A stretch of 64,000 bases of DNA, taken from positions 62,001-126,000 of the forward strand of contig NZ_JAUYUD010000085.1 of NCBI RefSeq assembly GCF_030692605.1, read 5' to 3'. Origin of the DNA: Lutibacter sp. GTDB taxonomy: Bacteria; Bacteroidota; Bacteroidia; Flavobacteriales; Flavobacteriaceae. Of the stretch, positions 20,372-29,245 are shown in pieces. The notes below the pieces were generated by a model. That model worked only from the letters and a program-made list of their open reading frames with translations, ran no database searches and was not told the DNA's origin. Made by a program: the position numbers and the translations under genes. How positions within the stretch are numbered: the first letter of the stretch is position 1; every line of letters starts with the position of its first letter.

Positions 20372-20401
20372 TTTTAATTTTTTTTATCACTTTTGAATGT
20401 T

Positions 20402-20409
20402 CAAAAATA
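20402..20409 (-). promoter_or_regulatory. Putative -7 element for leuA
   Basis: TATTTTTG on the minus strand, about 30 nt upstream of the leuA ATG. Confidence 0.5.
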
Positions 20410-20521
20410 GAAGTATAGTATTTTTACATACATTAGTAGTTAGATTAGATTACAGTACTCAAGTAATTCAACAACTATTTAAAATGCACAAAATCAATAC
20501 AATAAAAATAATATTGTTACA

Positions 20522-22069
20522 ATGGCTATAGATCAAAAAGATTCACTTTTCACCTTAGTTAAGGCACTTACGAAATCTGAAAAAAGACAATTTAAGCTAT
20601 ATGTAGGAAGATTGGGTGGGAATACCGATGCTAATTTTATGGCTTTATTTAATTTATTGGACAAAGTAGAGGAATATGACGATGACTTAATTGTTAAAAA
20701 AACCAATATAAAAAAACAACAAATTTCAAATACAAAGGCTCATTTATATAAACAAATATTGGTGAGTTTACGGTTTAACCCTGTGCATCACAATGTAAGA
20801 GCCCAAATTAGGGAGCAATTTGATTTTGCTGCTATTTTATATAATAAAGGTTTGTACAACCAAAGTTTGAAGATTTTAGATAGAGCAAAAGAATTGGCAT
20901 TAAACAATGGCGAAAATAACTTGGCATATGAAATTGTTGAATTTGAAAAGGTGATTGAGTCGCAATACATTACAAGAAGTATGAGCAACCGAGCCGATGA
21001 ACTTGCTGTTCAAGCAAAAAAATTAAGCTTAAAAAATGTTCAAATAAGTAAATTATCCAATTTATCATTGCAATTATATAGTTTACTGTTAAAAGAGGGG
21101 TATGCTAAAAATGATACTGATGCTCAAAGGGTTAGGCTGTATTTTGAAAAAAAATTGCCAAAAATAAAATTGGATGAAATGGGTTTTCGAGAAAAATTGT
21201 TTTTGTACAAAGCCTATTTGTGGTATAGTTTTATAACACAAGATTTTGTTTCGAGCTATAAATATTCTCAAAAATGGGTAGATTTATTTGAAAATAATCC
21301 AGATATGAAAATTCAGAATCCTGTTTTTTATTTAAAAGGAGTTAATTATTTACTGGAATCACTTTATTTAATAAAATACAAAACAAGGTTCAATCAAACT
21401 TTAGAAAAGCTGCGGTATGATATTTTAAATGAAAACGTTGCCATAAATGAAAACACAAGTACATTAGCTTTTTTATACGTAAATCAAAATAAACTTAACT
21501 TATATTTTTTAGAAGGAAATTTTACGCTTGGGTTAACCTATGTTGAAACATTAGTAAAAGACATAAAATTACATGAAACGAGTATAGATGCACATCATAT
21601 TATGGTTTTTTATTATAAAATAGCTTGTATGTATTTTGGTGCTGGTAAAAATGAAGAATGTATTTTTTATTTAGATAAAATAATTAATAATAAAGATTTA
21701 AAAATGAGAGAGGATTTATTGTGTTTTTCTCGCGTTTTAAATTTGGTAGCACATTATGATGCTGGTTTAGATTATAATATAGAAGTTATTATTATTTCAA
21801 CATATAAGTTTTTATTGAAAATGAACGATTTGCATCAAGTGCAGCGTAAAATGATTTCATTCTTAAAAAATTTAAGTGAGGTTTATCCACAAGATATTAA
21901 AAAGGCTTTTATAAAATTACATCAAGAATTGAGTGAATTTGAAAACCACCCATACGAAAGAAGATCTTTTTTATATCTAGATATTTTGTCATGGTTAGAA
22001 AGTAAAATTCAAAATAAAACTGTCGAAAAAATTGTACAAGACAAAGCGAAATTGTTAGTGAAACATTAA
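20522..22069 (+). CDS. Conserved hypothetical protein, helical-repeat-like
   Basis: Long intact 515-aa ORF of helical composition; no recognised catalytic motif. Confidence 0.75.
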   Translation: MAIDQKDSLFTLVKALTKSEKRQFKLYVGRLGGNTDANFMALFNLLDKVEEYDDDLIVKKTNIKKQQISNTKAHLYKQILVSLRFNPVHHNVRAQIREQFDFAAILYNKGLYNQSLKILDRAKELALNNGENNLAYEIVEFEKVIESQYITRSMSNRADELAVQAKKLSLKNVQISKLSNLSLQLYSLLLKEGYAKNDTDAQRVRLYFEKKLPKIKLDEMGFREKLFLYKAYLWYSFITQDFVSSYKYSQKWVDLFENNPDMKIQNPVFYLKGVNYLLESLYLIKYKTRFNQTLEKLRYDILNENVAINENTSTLAFLYVNQNKLNLYFLEGNFTLGLTYVETLVKDIKLHETSIDAHHIMVFYYKIACMYFGAGKNEECIFYLDKIINNKDLKMREDLLCFSRVLNLVAHYDAGLDYNIEVIIISTYKFLLKMNDLHQVQRKMISFLKNLSEVYPQDIKKAFIKLHQELSEFENHPYERRSFLYLDILSWLESKIQNKTVEKIVQDKAKLLVKH

Positions 22070-22124
22070 TTTTAAGTTTAATTGGTGATTTATTAAATTT
22101 TATTTTTAATATTTGCTTTTCAAT

Positions 22125-22187
22125 ATGAAACTAAAAAACAACATCATTTCTATTTTAAACGTCGTAATTATTTTACGGTATAGATAG
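22125..22187 (+). CDS. Branched-chain-amino-acid-rich leader peptide MKLKNNIISILNVVIILRYR
   Basis: 20-codon ORF with 11 Ile/Leu/Val codons, followed by an intrinsic terminator and then ilvD. Confidence 0.8.
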   Translation: MKLKNNIISILNVVIILRYR

Positions 22188-22250
22188 GAACGTTTGTATA
22201 TTTAAAAAATAAAAAAAACCTTCCTAATACTATTTTAGGAAGGTTTTTTT
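22157..22250 (+). promoter_or_regulatory. Transcription attenuator of the ilv operon (1:2, 2:3 and 3:4 alternative pairings)
   Basis: 1:2 AAACGT(22157-22162)/ACGTTT(22190-22195) with inner CGTAA(22163-22167)/TTACG(22173-22177); 2:3 TAGGAACGTTT(22185-22195)/AAACCTTCCTA(22216-22226), one mismatch; 3:4 terminator. Confidence 0.8.
22211..22250 (+). terminator. Intrinsic terminator in the ilv leader (attenuator 3:4 hairpin)
   Basis: aaaaaaaaccttcctaa-tactatt-ttaggaaggttttttt. Confidence 0.93.
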
Positions 22251-22459
22251 ATGGTGTTATCATTGTAAAAAATAAAACTGTAACTATCTTGTTTGTAGAT
22301 AAATAAGTTCGATATAGAGGTATTGACTGTTGTAAAAGAAATGAACATAAACCATTTAATAGAAATGACTCAATTAAATTTGTGCCCTATTGTAAAAAAG
22401 TAACAAAAAACAGATTGTTTTAAAAATAATTTAAAATAATTTAAAAAGTACTAAATTAA

Positions 22460-24142
22460 ATGCAACTAAATAAATATAGCAAAAGAGTAACCCAAGATCC
22501 AACCCAACCTGCTGCACAAGCTATGTTATATGGTGTTGGTTTATCTGAAGAAGATTTAAAAAATCCTCAAATTGGTATTGCAAGTACAGGTTACGATGGT
22601 AATCCGTGCAATATGCATTTGAATAAATTAGCCTCTCAAATTAAAGAGGAAGTTAATAAACTTAACCAAGTTGGTCTAATATTTAATACTATAGGTGTTA
22701 GCGATGGAATTTCTATGGGAACATCTGGAATGAACTATTCTTTACCTTCTCGGGATATTATAGCCGATTCTATGGAGGTTGTAATGAATGCTCAAAGTTA
22801 TGATGGCATGATTGCAATTGTTGGTTGCGATAAAAATATGCCAGGTTCTATAATAGCAATGCTTCGCTTAAACCGTCCATCTTTAATGGTTTATGGGGGA
22901 ACCATAGCTTCTGGAAGGTATAAGGGCCAAAAATTAAATATTGTTTCGGCTTTTGAAGCATTAGGACAAAAATTATCTGGAGCAATTTCCGAAGAGGATT
23001 ATAAAGAAATTATAAAAAATGCGATACCAGGAGCTGGTGCTTGTGGAGGAATGTATACTGCAAATACGATGGCTTCATCTATTGAAGCAATGGGATTTGC
23101 CTTGCCGTATAATTCTTCAATTCCGGCAGAAAATCCTTTTAAAGAATTAGAAAGTGAGCGCATCGCCGCAGCAATTAAAAACTTATTAGAACTCGATTTA
23201 AAACCATTAGACATTATCACAAAAAAATCGTTAGAAAACGCAGTGACTTTGGTAAACGCTTTAGGTGGTTCTACCAATGCAGTATTGCATTATTTAGCCA
23301 TTGCGTATGCAGCAGGTATCGAATTCACGTTGGAAGATTTTCAACGTGTTAGTGATAGAACACCGTTAATTGCTGATCTAAAACCAAGTGGTGAATATTT
23401 AATGGAAGATGTTCATGGTGTTGGAGGAACACCAGCAGTTATGAAATACTTATTAGAAAAAGGATACCTGTATGGCGATTGTATGACTGTCACTGGTAAA
23501 ACCCTTGCTGAAAATTTGGCCAATGTAAAACCTTTAAGTTTTGAAGAAGATCAACAAGTAATTCATCCAACTGAAAAAGCGTTGAAGGCTTCAGGAAATA
23601 TTCAAATTTTGTATGGGAATCTGGCAACTGAAGGTGCTGTTGCCAAAATTAGCGGTAATGAAGGGAATTTATTTAAAGGGAAAGCAGTTGTTTTTGATGG
23701 AGAAGACCAAGCGAATGCAGGAATTGGAGCTGGTAAAGTTTCTAAAGGAGATATAGTTGTAATTAGATATGTAGGCCCAAAAGGTGGACCAGGAATGCCT
23801 GAAATGCTAAAACCTACTTCAATGATTATGGGAGCTGGGTTGGGGAAATCTGTTGCATTAATCACCGATGGACGTTTTTCTGGAGGAACTCACGGATTCG
23901 TAGTTGGTCATATAACTCCCGAAGCTCAAAATGGGGGCGCAATAGCATTGATCTATAATGATGATATTATTGAAATTGATGCGCTTAAAAGAACAATTAA
24001 TGTCCTTATTTCTGATGAAGAACTTGAAAGGAGAAAAGCGCTATGGACAGCACCAGAATTGAAACATAAGAAAGGAATATTATATAAATATGCAAAAACT
24101 GTTGCATCGGCTTCTGAAGGTTGTGTAACTGATAAATATTAA
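22460..24142 (+). CDS. ilvD: Dihydroxy-acid dehydratase
   Basis: [20 protein letters not shown] and [19 protein letters not shown] motifs. Confidence 0.96.
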
Positions 24143-24146
24143 ATTT

Positions 24147-25880
24147 ATGGAAACATTAAAAAGAGAAGTTGAAAAAGAAATAGCTGAAAAATCGATAAGA
24201 ATTACGGGTGCCGAAGCCGTTATAAAATGTTTATTAGCAGAAGGTGTTAATTTGGCCTATGGGTATCCAGGAGGTGCAATTATGCCAGTGTACGATGAAA
24301 TATACAAATATCAAGATCAATTTCACCACGTATTAACACGTCACGAACAAGGAGCAATACACGCTGCACAAGGATTTGCAAGGGTATCTGGAAAAGTTGG
24401 GATGGTTTTTGCAACATCGGGTCCAGGTGCAACCAACTTGGTTACAGGTATTGCTGATGCTCAAATAGATTCTACACCGTTGGTTTGTATTACTGGCCAA
24501 GTTGGATCGCATTTATTGGGCTCTGACGCTTTTCAAGAAACAGATATTATAGGTATTTCAACTCCAGTTACTAAATGGAACTATCAAATAACTAAGGCTA
24601 GTGAAATACCTGAAATAATTGCGAAAGCATTTTATATTGCAAAATCTGGTCGTCCAGGCCCGGTTTTAATTGATATTACCAAAGATGCACAGTTTGGTGA
24701 ATTGGATTTTTTATATAAAAAATGTGAAAAAGTAAGAAGTTATAGAGCGGTTCCAATATTAAATATAGATAAGGTTAAAGAAGCGGCTGCATTAATTAAT
24801 AGTGCTAAAAAACCATTTATTGTTTGGGGACAAGGTGTTATTCTTGGCAAGGCAGAGCAAGAGTTTAAAAAATTTATTGAAAAAACGAATATTCCTTCTG
24901 CTTGTACGGGTTTAGGCCTTTCCGCTTTAGAAACAGCACATCCATTACACGTTGGTATGGTTGGTATGCACGGAAATTATGCGCCAAACGTTTTAACCAA
25001 TTCTTGTGATGTTTTAATTGCTATTGGAATGCGTTTTGATGATCGAGTTACTGGGAATTTAGCAACCTATGCAAAACAAGCCAAAGTGATACACTTTGAT
25101 ATTGATCCTGCAGAAGTTGATAAAAATGTAAAGACTGATATTGCTGTTATAGCTGATGTTAAAGAATCTTTAGCTGAAATTATGCAGTTTGTAAATAAAG
25201 CTGATCATAAAGAATGGATGCAAGAATTTAATAAATTATATGATGTTGAACTTAAAGCTGTAATTAATGATCAGTTAAATCCTACAAAAGAAGGATTAAC
25301 AATGGGTGAAGTTATTAGTGGAATAAACAAAGAAACCAATGGCGATGCTATTATGGTTTCAGATGTTGGTCAGCATCAAATGTTTGCTTGGCGCTATGCT
25401 AATTTTAAAAAAACAAGAAGTAATGTAACTTCAGGAGGTTTAGGAACTATGGGATTTGCATTACCAGCAGCTATTGGTGCGAAAATGGGAGCGCCAGAAC
25501 GTGAGGTTGTTGCAATTATTGGGGATGGAGGTTATCAAATGACTTGTAACGAGTTGGGTACTATTCTTCAAACAAAGGCAGCAGTTAAAATTGTAGTGTT
25601 AAATAATAGTTATTTAGGAATGGTTCGCCAATGGCAAGAATTATTTTTTGACAAGCGATATGCCTCCACAGAAATGGTAAGTCCAAATTTTGTGAAGCTT
25701 GCAGAAGCGTATGATATTGAAGCGGTTAGAGTTTCAAAACGTGAAGATTTAGCAGGAGCCATAAAAACAATGATTGCATCTAAAGAAGCATTTTTTTTAG
25801 AAGTGGTTATAGAACAAGAAGATAATGTATTTCCAATGATACCAACAGGAGCAAGTGTTTCAGATATAAGATTAAGTTAA
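24147..25880 (+). CDS. ilvB: Acetolactate synthase large subunit
   Basis: GYPGGAIMPVYD, TSGPGATNLVTGIADA and the ThDP motif GDGGYQMTCNELGT. Confidence 0.96.
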   Translation: METLKREVEKEIAEKSIRITGAEAVIKCLLAEGVNLAYGYPGGAIMPVYDEIYKYQDQFHHVLTRHEQGAIHAAQGFARVSGKVGMVFATSGPGATNLVTGIADAQIDSTPLVCITGQVGSHLLGSDAFQETDIIGISTPVTKWNYQITKASEIPEIIAKAFYIAKSGRPGPVLIDITKDAQFGELDFLYKKCEKVRSYRAVPILNIDKVKEAAALINSAKKPFIVWGQGVILGKAEQEFKKFIEKTNIPSACTGLGLSALETAHPLHVGMVGMHGNYAPNVLTNSCDVLIAIGMRFDDRVTGNLATYAKQAKVIHFDIDPAEVDKNVKTDIAVIADVKESLAEIMQFVNKADHKEWMQEFNKLYDVELKAVINDQLNPTKEGLTMGEVISGINKETNGDAIMVSDVGQHQMFAWRYANFKKTRSNVTSGGLGTMGFALPAAIGAKMGAPEREVVAIIGDGGYQMTCNELGTILQTKAAVKIVVLNNSYLGMVRQWQELFFDKRYASTEMVSPNFVKLAEAYDIEAVRVSKREDLAGAIKTMIASKEAFFLEVVIEQEDNVFPMIPTGASVSDIRLS

Positions 25881-25882
25881 TT

Positions 25883-26404
25883 ATGGAAGAAAATAAAAAT
25901 TTTACAATTTCGGTATATACCGAAAATAATATAGGAATATTAAATCGGCTTTCAGCAATATTTTTAAAACGTCATATCAATATTGAAAGTATGACAGTTT
26001 CTAAATCTGAAATAGATCGCGTTCACAGGTTTACATTTGTAGTAATTGTGCCAGAAACGCTTATTAGAAAAGTTGTTCTTCAATTAGAAAAACAAATTGA
26101 AGTGATTGGTGCTTTTTATCATACTGAAGATGAAATTATTTATCATGAAACGGCCTTATTTAAAATTTCTTCGGAACACTTGTATGATGAACAAATTCAA
26201 GATAAAATGAAATTTAGAAGAGCACATATTATTTCAATAAATGAACGTTGGTTTGTTATTGAAGCAAGTGGTTTAAAAGAAGATATTGATAGGATGTATG
26301 ATAAATTAAAGCCTTATGGGTTGTTGCAATTTGTGCGTTCAGGACGTATTGCAATTACAAAACCTAAAATGGCAATATCAGAATTATTAGCAGAAATTAA
26401 TTAA
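25883..26404 (+). CDS. ilvN: Acetolactate synthase small subunit
   Basis: N-terminal ACT domain NNIGILNRLSAIFLKRHINIESMTV; adjacent to ilvB. Confidence 0.92.
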   Translation: MEENKNFTISVYTENNIGILNRLSAIFLKRHINIESMTVSKSEIDRVHRFTFVVIVPETLIRKVVLQLEKQIEVIGAFYHTEDEIIYHETALFKISSEHLYDEQIQDKMKFRRAHIISINERWFVIEASGLKEDIDRMYDKLKPYGLLQFVRSGRIAITKPKMAISELLAEIN

Positions 26405-26503
26405 GCCCCCTTTACCCCCGAAGTGGGAATAGGAGTTTATTAAAAACATATAAAAATTAGCTTAAAAAATAAAGACTTAAAACTTAAAACTAAAGACATA
26501 AAA

Positions 26504-27976
26504 ATGGCAAATTATTTTAACTCACTTCCACTACGTTTACAATTAGAGCAATTAGGACAATGTGAATTTATGGACAGCTCTGAATTTGGTGAAGGTGTAT
26601 CAGCTTTAAAAGGAAAAAAAATTGTAATTATCGGTTGTGGAGCTCAAGGGTTAAACCAAGGTTTAAATATGAGAGATTCAGGATTGGATATTTCTTATAC
26701 TTTAAGACCAAATGCAATTTCTGAAAAAAGACAATCGTTTTTAAATGCTTCTGATAACAAATTTAAAGTTGGTACGTATGAAGAAATGATTCCAACGGCT
26801 GATTTATTAATCAACTTAACGCCAGACAAGCAGCATACAAGTGTGGTAACTGAAGTAATGCCTTTAATGAAAAAAGGATCAACACTTTCGTATTCTCATG
26901 GTTTTAATATTGTTGAAGAAGGAATGCAGGTTAGAAAAGATATCACTGTAATTATGGTGGCGCCAAAGTCACCTGGTTCAGAAGTAAGAGAAGAATATAA
27001 AAGAGGATTTGGTGTGCCAACATTAATTGCAGTTCATCCTGAAAATGATCCTGAAGGAAAAGGTTGGGACTATGCAAAAGCATATGCAGTTGCAACAGGT
27101 GGACATACTGCAGGAGTGTTAAAATCATCATTTGTTGCTGAAGTAAAATCTGATTTAATGGGTGAACAAACAATTCTTTGTGGATTGTTGCAAACAGGTT
27201 CTATCTTATGTTTCGATAAAATGGTTGCTGAAGGTGTGGATGCTGGCTATGCTTCAAAATTAATTCAGTACGGTTGGGAAACCATTACTGAAGCGTTGAA
27301 ATATGGAGGAATTACCAATATGATGGACAGATTGTCTAATCCTGCTAAAATTGCTGCTTTCAATACATCTGAAGAATTAAAAGAAATTATGCGTCCGCTT
27401 TTTCAAAAGCATATGGATGATATTATGTCTGGACATTTTTCTAAAACAATGATGGAAGACTGGGCAAATGATGATATTAACTTATTAACATGGAGAGCTG
27501 CAACTGGCGAAACTGCGTTTGAAAAAACGCCTGCCGCTGATGTTAAAATTTCAGAACAAGAATATTTTGATAACGGAGTTTTAATGGTAGCAATGGTAAA
27601 AGCGGGTGTTGAATTGGCTTTTGAAACAATGACCGAAGCGGGTATTATTGAAGAATCTGCTTATTATGAATCTTTACATGAAACTCCATTAATTGCAAAT
27701 ACAATTGCTCGAAAAAAATTATTCGAAATGAACCGTGTAATTTCTGATACTGCAGAATATGGATGTTACTTATTTGACCATGCTTGTAAACCATTAATTG
27801 CTGATTACGTTAAAAAAGCGCCGAGCAATTTAGTTGGAAGACCATTTAATGATGGATCAAACGGAGTTGATAATAAAGAGTTAATTGAAGTGAATTCAGT
27901 AATTAGAAATCATCCAATTGAAGATATTGGTGCGTATTTACGTGAGTCTATGACTGCAATGACTAAAATAGTATAG
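26504..27976 (+). CDS. ilvC: Ketol-acid reductoisomerase, class II (long form)
   Basis: [41 protein letters not shown] and 490-aa length. Confidence 0.96.
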
Positions 27977-27982
27977 ATTTTT

Positions 27983-29245
27983 GTGAATACAAAAACCCAA
28001 AATAGCATTTCTTTAGAGAAAATATATAAAGCTCAACATAATATTAAAGGAGTTGTTGAACAAACTCCTTTGATTTTTATGAAGAATTTTTCTGAACGGT
28101 ATCATGCTAAAATTTACTTCAAAAGGGAAGATTTACAAGTGGTTCGTTCTTATAAAATTAGGGGAGCTTATAATAAAATTCAAGGGTTAACAAATGACAA
28201 ATTAAAAAATGGGATTGTTTGTGCAAGTGCTGGTAATCACGCACAAGGAGTTGCATACGCTTGTCAGAAATTAAAAGTACAAGGAACTATTTTTATGCCT
28301 GTAACTACACCACATCAAAAAATTGATCAGGTTAGAATGTTTGGTGGCTCATTTGTAGATATAAAACTTTTTGGTGATAGTTTTGATGATAGTCAGAAGG
28401 CTGCTGTTGAATTTTGTGAAAAAACTAAGACCACATTCGTGCACCCTTTTGATGATTTGGAGGTAATTGCTGGACAAGGAACTGTTGGATTAGAAATTTT
28501 AAATGATAGTGAAAATCCGATTGATTATTTATTTCTTCCTGTTGGAGGTGGAGGTTTAGCAGCAGGAGTTTCAAGCGTGTTTAAAACCTTAAGCCCAAAA
28601 ACAAAAATTATTGGGGTAGAGCCAATAGGAGCACCTTCGTTAACAACTTCATTAGAAAAGGGTGTAAATACAACCTTAGATGAAATTGATAATTTTGTTG
28701 ACGGAGCTGCCGTAAAGCGTATTGGAGAATTAAATTTTGAGATTTGTAAAGAATTATTAGATGGAACTGATACCATTTGTGAAGGACTAATTTGCTCTAC
28801 TATTTTAAAATTGTATAATGAAAATGCATTGGTAGTTGAACCAGCTGGGGCTTTGTCTATCGCTGCGCTTGAAAATTTCAAAAACGAAATTAAAGGAAAA
28901 ACCATTGTGTGTGTTGTGAGTGGAGGTAATAACGACATTACCCGAATGGAAGAAATGAAAGAACGAGCGTTATTTTACGAAGGTTTAAAACATTATTTTA
29001 TCATTAAATTTCCACAAAGAGCAGGTGCTTTAAAAGAATTTGTGGTAGATGTTTTAGGTCCAAATGACGATATTGCTTATTTTGAATATACCAAAAAACA
29101 CAACAGAGATAAAGGGCCAGCAGTAGTTGGTATAGAATTAGAATCGAAAGAAGACTTTGAACCATTATTAACTAGAATGAAGCAAAAAGGATTTTTAAGT
29201 GAATATTTAAATGAAAAACCAGAACTTTTTCAGTTTTTAGTGTAA
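27983..29245 (+). CDS. ilvA: Threonine ammonia-lyase
   Basis: KREDLQVVRSYKIRGAYNKI PLP lysine motif, ASAGNHAQGVAYAC, C-terminal ACT-like region. Confidence 0.93.
   Translation: MNTKTQNSISLEKIYKAQHNIKGVVEQTPLIFMKNFSERYHAKIYFKREDLQVVRSYKIRGAYNKIQGLTNDKLKNGIVCASAGNHAQGVAYACQKLKVQGTIFMPVTTPHQKIDQVRMFGGSFVDIKLFGDSFDDSQKAAVEFCEKTKTTFVHPFDDLEVIAGQGTVGLEILNDSENPIDYLFLPVGGGGLAAGVSSVFKTLSPKTKIIGVEPIGAPSLTTSLEKGVNTTLDEIDNFVDGAAVKRIGELNFEICKELLDGTDTICEGLICSTILKLYNENALVVEPAGALSIAALENFKNEIKGKTIVCVVSGGNNDITRMEEMKERALFYEGLKHYFIIKFPQRAGALKEFVVDVLGPNDDIAYFEYTKKHNRDKGPAVVGIELESKEDFEPLLTRMKQKGFLSEYLNEKPELFQFLV

Follow-up and report, generated by a model that had tools for sequence, protein, structure and literature searches.

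A probable ribosome-mediated transcription attenuator, with a predicted separate promoter, upstream of the ilvDBNCA operon of Lutibacter

Is the short reading frame that lies, together with a terminator-like hairpin, in front of the ilvDBNCA operon of Lutibacter sp. part of a transcription attenuator read by the ribosome? In enterobacteria, the attenuators of ilvGMEDA, ilvB, trp, his and thr consist of a leader ORF with runs of codons for the product of the pathway and of three helices, 1:2, 2:3 and 3:4. A first-pass annotation had proposed such a three-way switch for this locus. We analysed it in the window (the whole stretch of 64,000 nt, from whose first letter all positions are counted) and in the ilvD upstream regions of relatives. 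Region 22120-22250 is very probably a ribosome-mediated (leader-peptide) transcription attenuator of ilvDBNCA that senses charged tRNA-Ile and tRNA-Val, with a separate promoter, P2. The features of the attenuator and of the operon are as follows.

22125-22187, + strand: leader peptide ORF of 20 codons (ATG at 22125, stop TAG at 22185-22187), translation MKLKNNIISILNVVIILRYR
22147-22155, + strand: strand 1, TTTCTATTT, over Ser-Ile-Leu codons, pairing with 22182-22190 in the fold
22162-22178, + strand: inner hairpin of the leader, TCGTAA-TTATT-TTACGG, spanning Val/Ile codons in the fold
22185-22195, + strand: strand 2, the antiterminator, TAGGAACGTTT, which starts at the stop codon of the leader and lies 12 nt past the last Ile codon
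22212-22250, + strand: intrinsic terminator hairpin (3:4) with 16 pairs, a 7-nt loop and a T-run
22216-22226, + strand: strand 3, AAACCTTCCTA, which forms the 5' arm of the terminator and can pair with strand 2
22460-24142, + strand: ilvD (Pfam), first gene of the operon predicted to be controlled
24147-29245, + strand: ilvB, ilvN, ilvC and ilvA (Pfam)

The 20-codon ORF and the intrinsic terminator ahead of ilvD were thus found as the first-pass annotation had described them, and the identities that it gave to the five ilv genes were borne out by Pfam; its count of 11 Ile, Leu and Val residues in the leader peptide has to be corrected to 10 of 20. The leader ORF ends 272 nt and the terminator 209 nt before ilvD, with the terminator standing between the leader ORF and the first structural gene. 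Folding of 22115-22260, which had been suggested as a check, gave an energy z of -5.4.

When the ilvD gene of the window was compared with its best match in each of 29 genomes of the genus, identities were 83-91%; named Lutibacter records lie at 85-87%. The genus set comprised 30 ilvD loci, from which one unparsed locus, L109 (contig end) and L087 (short and unlike the others) were left out. Every one of the 27 Lutibacter loci whose sequence is sufficiently intact carries the leader and terminator unit upstream of ilvD; among them are L094, L103 and L110, whose units were missed by the script and recognised by eye. The comparison of ilvD upstream regions, in which the leader ORF and the competing arms had been expected to be conserved, was therefore strongly positive. 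A further 80 named ilvD loci include at least 28 with the unit, from Flavobacteriaceae, Saprospiraceae, Chitinophagaceae and one record labelled Ignavibacteriae. When the order beyond the genus was sampled evenly, the unit turned up in 4 of 12 members of the family and in 1 of the 8 remaining, so it is patchy outside the genus, and its absence from about two thirds of the sampled family members counts against the proposed attenuator.

In about a dozen loci of the genus, a second unit in tandem, or what remains of one, follows the first unit ahead of ilvD. In L086, L088, L089, L091, L093, L096 and others it is a second Ile-rich attenuator (leader ...IILIQVIII..., arms ACCTGTATCA/TGATGCA), and in L094 and L104 it is seemingly reduced to remnants. 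Upstream of ilvD in L004 there is a leader remnant with the typical GTGATTATTTCAC hairpin, from which the terminator is gone and the second-promoter motif is kept; it looks like a decayed attenuator.

The short leader ORF rich in codons for the pathway products is kept in relatives. In the first-unit leaders of Lutibacter, Ile accounts for 30% and Val for 15% of the codons, compared with 7.7% and 6.8% in the neighbouring genes (3.9-fold and 2.2-fold over-representation), and Leu is two-fold depleted (0.5x). Of the Ile, Val and Leu codon runs first claimed, the Ile and Val part holds and the Leu part does not. Since Leu is depleted and Ile and Val are enriched, the signals read by the ilv leader appear to be Ile and Val, not Leu. 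Only 7 of 132 Ile codons in these leaders are ATA, against 71 of 268 in the neighbouring genes, and sensing probably proceeds via the tRNA-Ile that reads ATT and ATC.

For the 1:2 pairing, AAACGT (22157-62) and ACGTTT (22190-95) with an inner CGTAA/TTACG hairpin had been put forward. These pairings are present, but the helix supported by relatives is that of TTTCTATTT (22147-22155) with AGATAGGAA (22182-22190) around TCGTAA/TTACGG. Across relatives strand 1 overlies Asn-Ile-Ile-Ser codons and faces the stop region. In 28 aligned sequences the 1:2 helix is 87% paired, with compensatory changes present, and the 3:4 terminator is paired in 96.7% of cells; the inner hairpin shows compensatory GC to AU changes. 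When 1:2, inner hairpin and terminator were taken together, 88% of cells were paired versus 44-52% when the structure was slid, and 32 both-side changes were counted versus 13 expected, a number reached in none of 500 shuffles. The leader folding energy per unit has a mean z of about -2. A 1:2 pairing able to sequester the antiterminator strand therefore exists, though the window's own leader/1:2 structure is weak (z -0.8), unlike that of relatives with a strong 1:2 helix. RNAalifold on the sequence alignment A2 returned the terminator alone because MAFFT misaligns the leader end, and it was replaced by per-unit folding and a named structure.

The 2:3 antiterminator (22185-95 with 22216-26) forms 10 of 11 pairs in the window and starts at the leader stop codon, both as first described. 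Within the genus no covariation of the antiterminator arms could be scored, the test being uninformative because the arms are nearly invariant, and a cross-clade swap was used in its place. The types of terminator arm vary by clade (CCTTCC, CTGTATC, CTCCC, CCATTC, CCCTT). In 53 of 55 units the own stop region, at the leader end, pairs with the terminator 5' arm better than the stop regions of other classes do (mean 2.7 kcal/mol, p 1.9e-10), and an earlier swap test without clade classes was weaker (p<0.05 in 12 of 30 units); the sequences are related, so neither p-value is that of independent samples. It can be seen that the arms co-change, and the comparison of relatives supports the three-way switch of a ribosome-mediated attenuator.

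The distance from the end of the last Ile/Val codon to the antiterminator has a median of 12 nt (IQR 11-14) and falls within 10-15 nt in 76% of cases, compared with 18% (maximum 38%) in the codon-shuffled control; the leader and spacing scripts choose the best-looking ORF and duplex, which somewhat favours the hypothesis, and the codon-shuffle and cross-clade controls were therefore used. The position of the antiterminator is more variable relative to the stop codon than relative to the last Ile/Val codon. Such a fixed codon-to-antiterminator distance is what a ribosome footprint would select. Folding with the ribosome footprint masked gave a mean probability of upstream pairing of strand 3 of 0.69 with the ribosome on the Ile/Val codons and 0.13 with the ribosome at the stop codon. 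Of the 55 units, 54 showed this contrast in the direction expected; part of it follows from the geometry with the antiterminator at the stop codon, which makes it a consistency check and not an independent proof. In these models strand 2 stays accessible while the ribosome sits on the stall codons and is covered once the ribosome has reached the stop codon. In the window unit the modelled antiterminator pairing is already 0.77 without a ribosome, so an untranslated leader should give read-through and not termination.

Which promoters feed this switch? Two sites were predicted.

22108-22115, + strand: predicted -7 box of P1, AATATTTG (consensus TAnnTTTG), with the start expected near 22120, about 5 nt before the leader ATG
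22262-22382, + strand: predicted P2 module, ATTGTAAAA-N59-TTGTAAAA-N37-TAAATTTG, downstream of the terminator, with its -7 box at 22375-22382

An nATATTTG-like box (5-of-6 match) occurs in 24 of 25 Lutibacter first units, ending 3-14 nt, mostly 6-12 nt, from the leader ATG. The -7 box of Flavobacterium psychrophilum sits at -12 to -5 (PMC9723704). The predicted 5' UTR of the leader is accordingly about 2-8 nt in the genus, that is, near-leaderless; in F. psychrophilum the median 5' UTR is 24 nt and leaderless mRNAs make up 5.5% (PMC9723704). A sigma-70 style promoter scan was discarded as uninformative for Bacteroidota.

The P2 module is kept in 27 of 27 Lutibacter loci, is better conserved than the P1 region, and ends in an exact TAnnTTTG box, TAAATTTG, 77 nt before ilvD. 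Exact matches to the module number 13, every one of 121 nt and at most one per genome, and those compared with the places of ilvD lie just upstream of that gene. A diverged form occurs in other Flavobacteriaceae, with or without the attenuator. Transcripts from the predicted P2 would bypass the attenuator. A promoter of ilvD downstream of 22250, with the terminator as the 3' end of the upstream transcript, had been named at the outset as evidence that would speak against attenuation; the conserved promoter was indeed found, and relatives contradict the terminator part (see below). With a conserved promoter there, the attenuator could control only the transcripts from the upstream promoter. P2 limits the attenuator rather than refuting it, and it could leave the attenuator a minor control.

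The alternative that survives best takes this furthest: the attenuator would be real yet nearly idle, with most ilv mRNA coming from P2 and control lying with a DNA-binding regulator at the 121-nt module. A -7 box that fits the consensus, a module retained in every one of the 27 Lutibacter loci and also in relatives lacking the attenuator, and the L004 locus, where the terminator was lost and P2 retained, all favour it. However, P1, leader, arms and spacing are clearly conserved genus-wide, and the attenuator is retained in Flavobacterium, where terminator and ilvD are only about 40 nt apart and sequence comparison of the loci that have the attenuator found no P2 motif. We regard an idle attenuator as unlikely.

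An attenuator in working order could act as follows; the start sites, the stalling, the response to amino acids and the relative output of P1 and P2 are what we infer. Transcription would begin at P1, some 5 nt ahead of the ATG of the leader, and the first ribosome would read the Ile/Val-rich leader. With Ile and Val ample, this ribosome would reach the stop codon and occupy strand 2 (22185-22195), strand 3 would then pair with strand 4, and transcription would end. With Ile-tRNA or Val-tRNA scarce, it would halt on the Ile/Val codons, breaking the 1:2 structure, and strand 2 would stay open because the last Ile codon lies 12 nt upstream; pairing of strand 2 with strand 3 would then let the polymerase run into ilvD. 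P2 (about 22375-22387), with its single-copy upstream module, would provide attenuator-independent transcription. Sequence comparison speaks for the leader, the terminator, the competing arms and their co-change, the spacing, the linkage to ilvD and the conservation of P2. A more specific version, possible but less likely than not, is that on the near-leaderless leader (about 2-8 nt) the first ribosome loads at the 5' end without Shine-Dalgarno pairing and reports Ile/Val-tRNA charging to the polymerase, supplemented by an operon-specific P2 that acts via a rigid, single-copy, 121-nt module bound by a regulator. To our knowledge, Shine-Dalgarno sequences are not expected in Bacteroidota.

Leaders of the same type were looked for elsewhere in the genome. 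A His-rich leader, MTFIQLHHHHFHSGTQAS, followed by a terminator, precedes hisG (L116), and a Trp-rich leader, MKKNTNTNWWWNSLKQKAS, followed by a terminator, precedes trpE (L131). Both are conserved in nearly all genus genomes sampled, and Lutibacter seems to use attenuation as a general device. In the gap upstream of leuA (minus strand, 20372-20521), inspection by eye gave no obvious leader ORF or terminator, and no leader was found near homoserine dehydrogenase genes. An own-genome similarity match (L083) was rejected as merely a similar terminator beside an unrelated gene. These leaders bear on a second alternative, that the terminated P1 transcript of ~130 nt is a small RNA or small-protein mRNA acting in trans. 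It would be a discrete predicted transcript, and the leader residues are conserved; but the conserved residues are those of the pathway's product, and the genome carries the His and Trp versions in front of its his and trp genes, which makes this alternative highly improbable.

The neighbouring gene raises a third alternative. Gene 20522-22069 lies upstream on the same strand and the terminator is ~143 nt downstream of its end, as would fit a terminator that serves to end the transcript of 20522-22069 and a leader ORF that is a chance product of AT-rich DNA. Its product, a protein of 515 aa encoded at 20522-22066, has no Pfam match; homologues of this protein adjoin ilvD in other Flavobacteriaceae and are divergent in one Saprospiraceae record. 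The gene upstream of the unit differs among species and is divergent in L008, L018, L038, L040 and L041. In these relatives the terminator therefore cannot belong to the end of the upstream gene, and the unit is linked to ilvD and not to its upstream neighbour. In 3000 dinucleotide shuffles of 22070-22459, a comparable terminator arose 0 times, a comparable Ile/Val-rich ORF 58 times, and both in register 0 times. As leader residues and spacing are conserved as well, we give this alternative hardly any weight. An RNA-binding-protein or tRNA-binding (T-box) attenuator would have terminator/antiterminator logic too, but it is equally implausible, given that no T-box or other Rfam match reached the gathering score and that what is conserved is how far the Ile/Val codons lie from the antiterminator, a distance readable only by a translating ribosome. 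The Rfam scan of the whole window gave only a tRNA at the gathering score; the leader families (Leu, His, Thr, Trp, Phe) and T-box stayed below the curated score, the best being Phe_leader on the + strand with 22.4 bits, where 55 are needed.

The ribosome-mediated attenuator preferred here is like the enterobacterial ones in its pathway-codon leader, its three helices, strand 2 near the leader stop and a terminator before the first gene. It is unlike them in the lack of an Rfam match at the gathering score in the window, in the predicted 5' UTR of only about 2-8 nt, and in the separate promoter downstream of the terminator. Vitreschak and colleagues in 2004 reportedly predicted, by comparison, leader-peptide attenuators for amino-acid operons outside enterobacteria, in Bacteroidetes/Chlorobi, and Lopatovskaya and colleagues in 2010 are said to have predicted attenuators in Bacteroidetes/Chlorobi. 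In F. psychrophilum, transcript mapping and RNA structure gave strong hints of leader-peptide attenuation in front of amino-acid operons, as published in 2021 (PMC9723704). The attenuator kind is thus already known even in Flavobacteriaceae, and the window unit adds a member; its placement in a Bacteroidota chromosome was correctly noted in the first-pass annotation but is not unprecedented. Family and proposed mechanism are the same as in that work, and, set against its accessible part, in which no operon is named, the present comparison tests arms, codons and spacing across genomes and describes P2. Salmonella mgtCBR has tandem attenuators, with a pair of short leader ORFs within a single long leader region (PMC3641672). 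Some Lutibacter relatives resemble mgtCBR in having two leader ORFs; the signals differ, and the window has one unit. What is new is the predicted near-leaderless leader, the second promoter and, in relatives, the tandem units.

For a stalled ribosome to bring about attenuation, the first ribosome has to follow close behind RNA polymerase. Taken together, conserved Ile/Val attenuation with a tight 12-nt spacing across Bacteroidota, and the His and Trp versions in the genus, are evidence for functional transcription-translation coupling in a phylum whose translation starts do not depend on Shine-Dalgarno sequences. The attenuators are ready-made reporters for testing such coupling, and the near-leaderless leader and the second promoter give specific, testable predictions.
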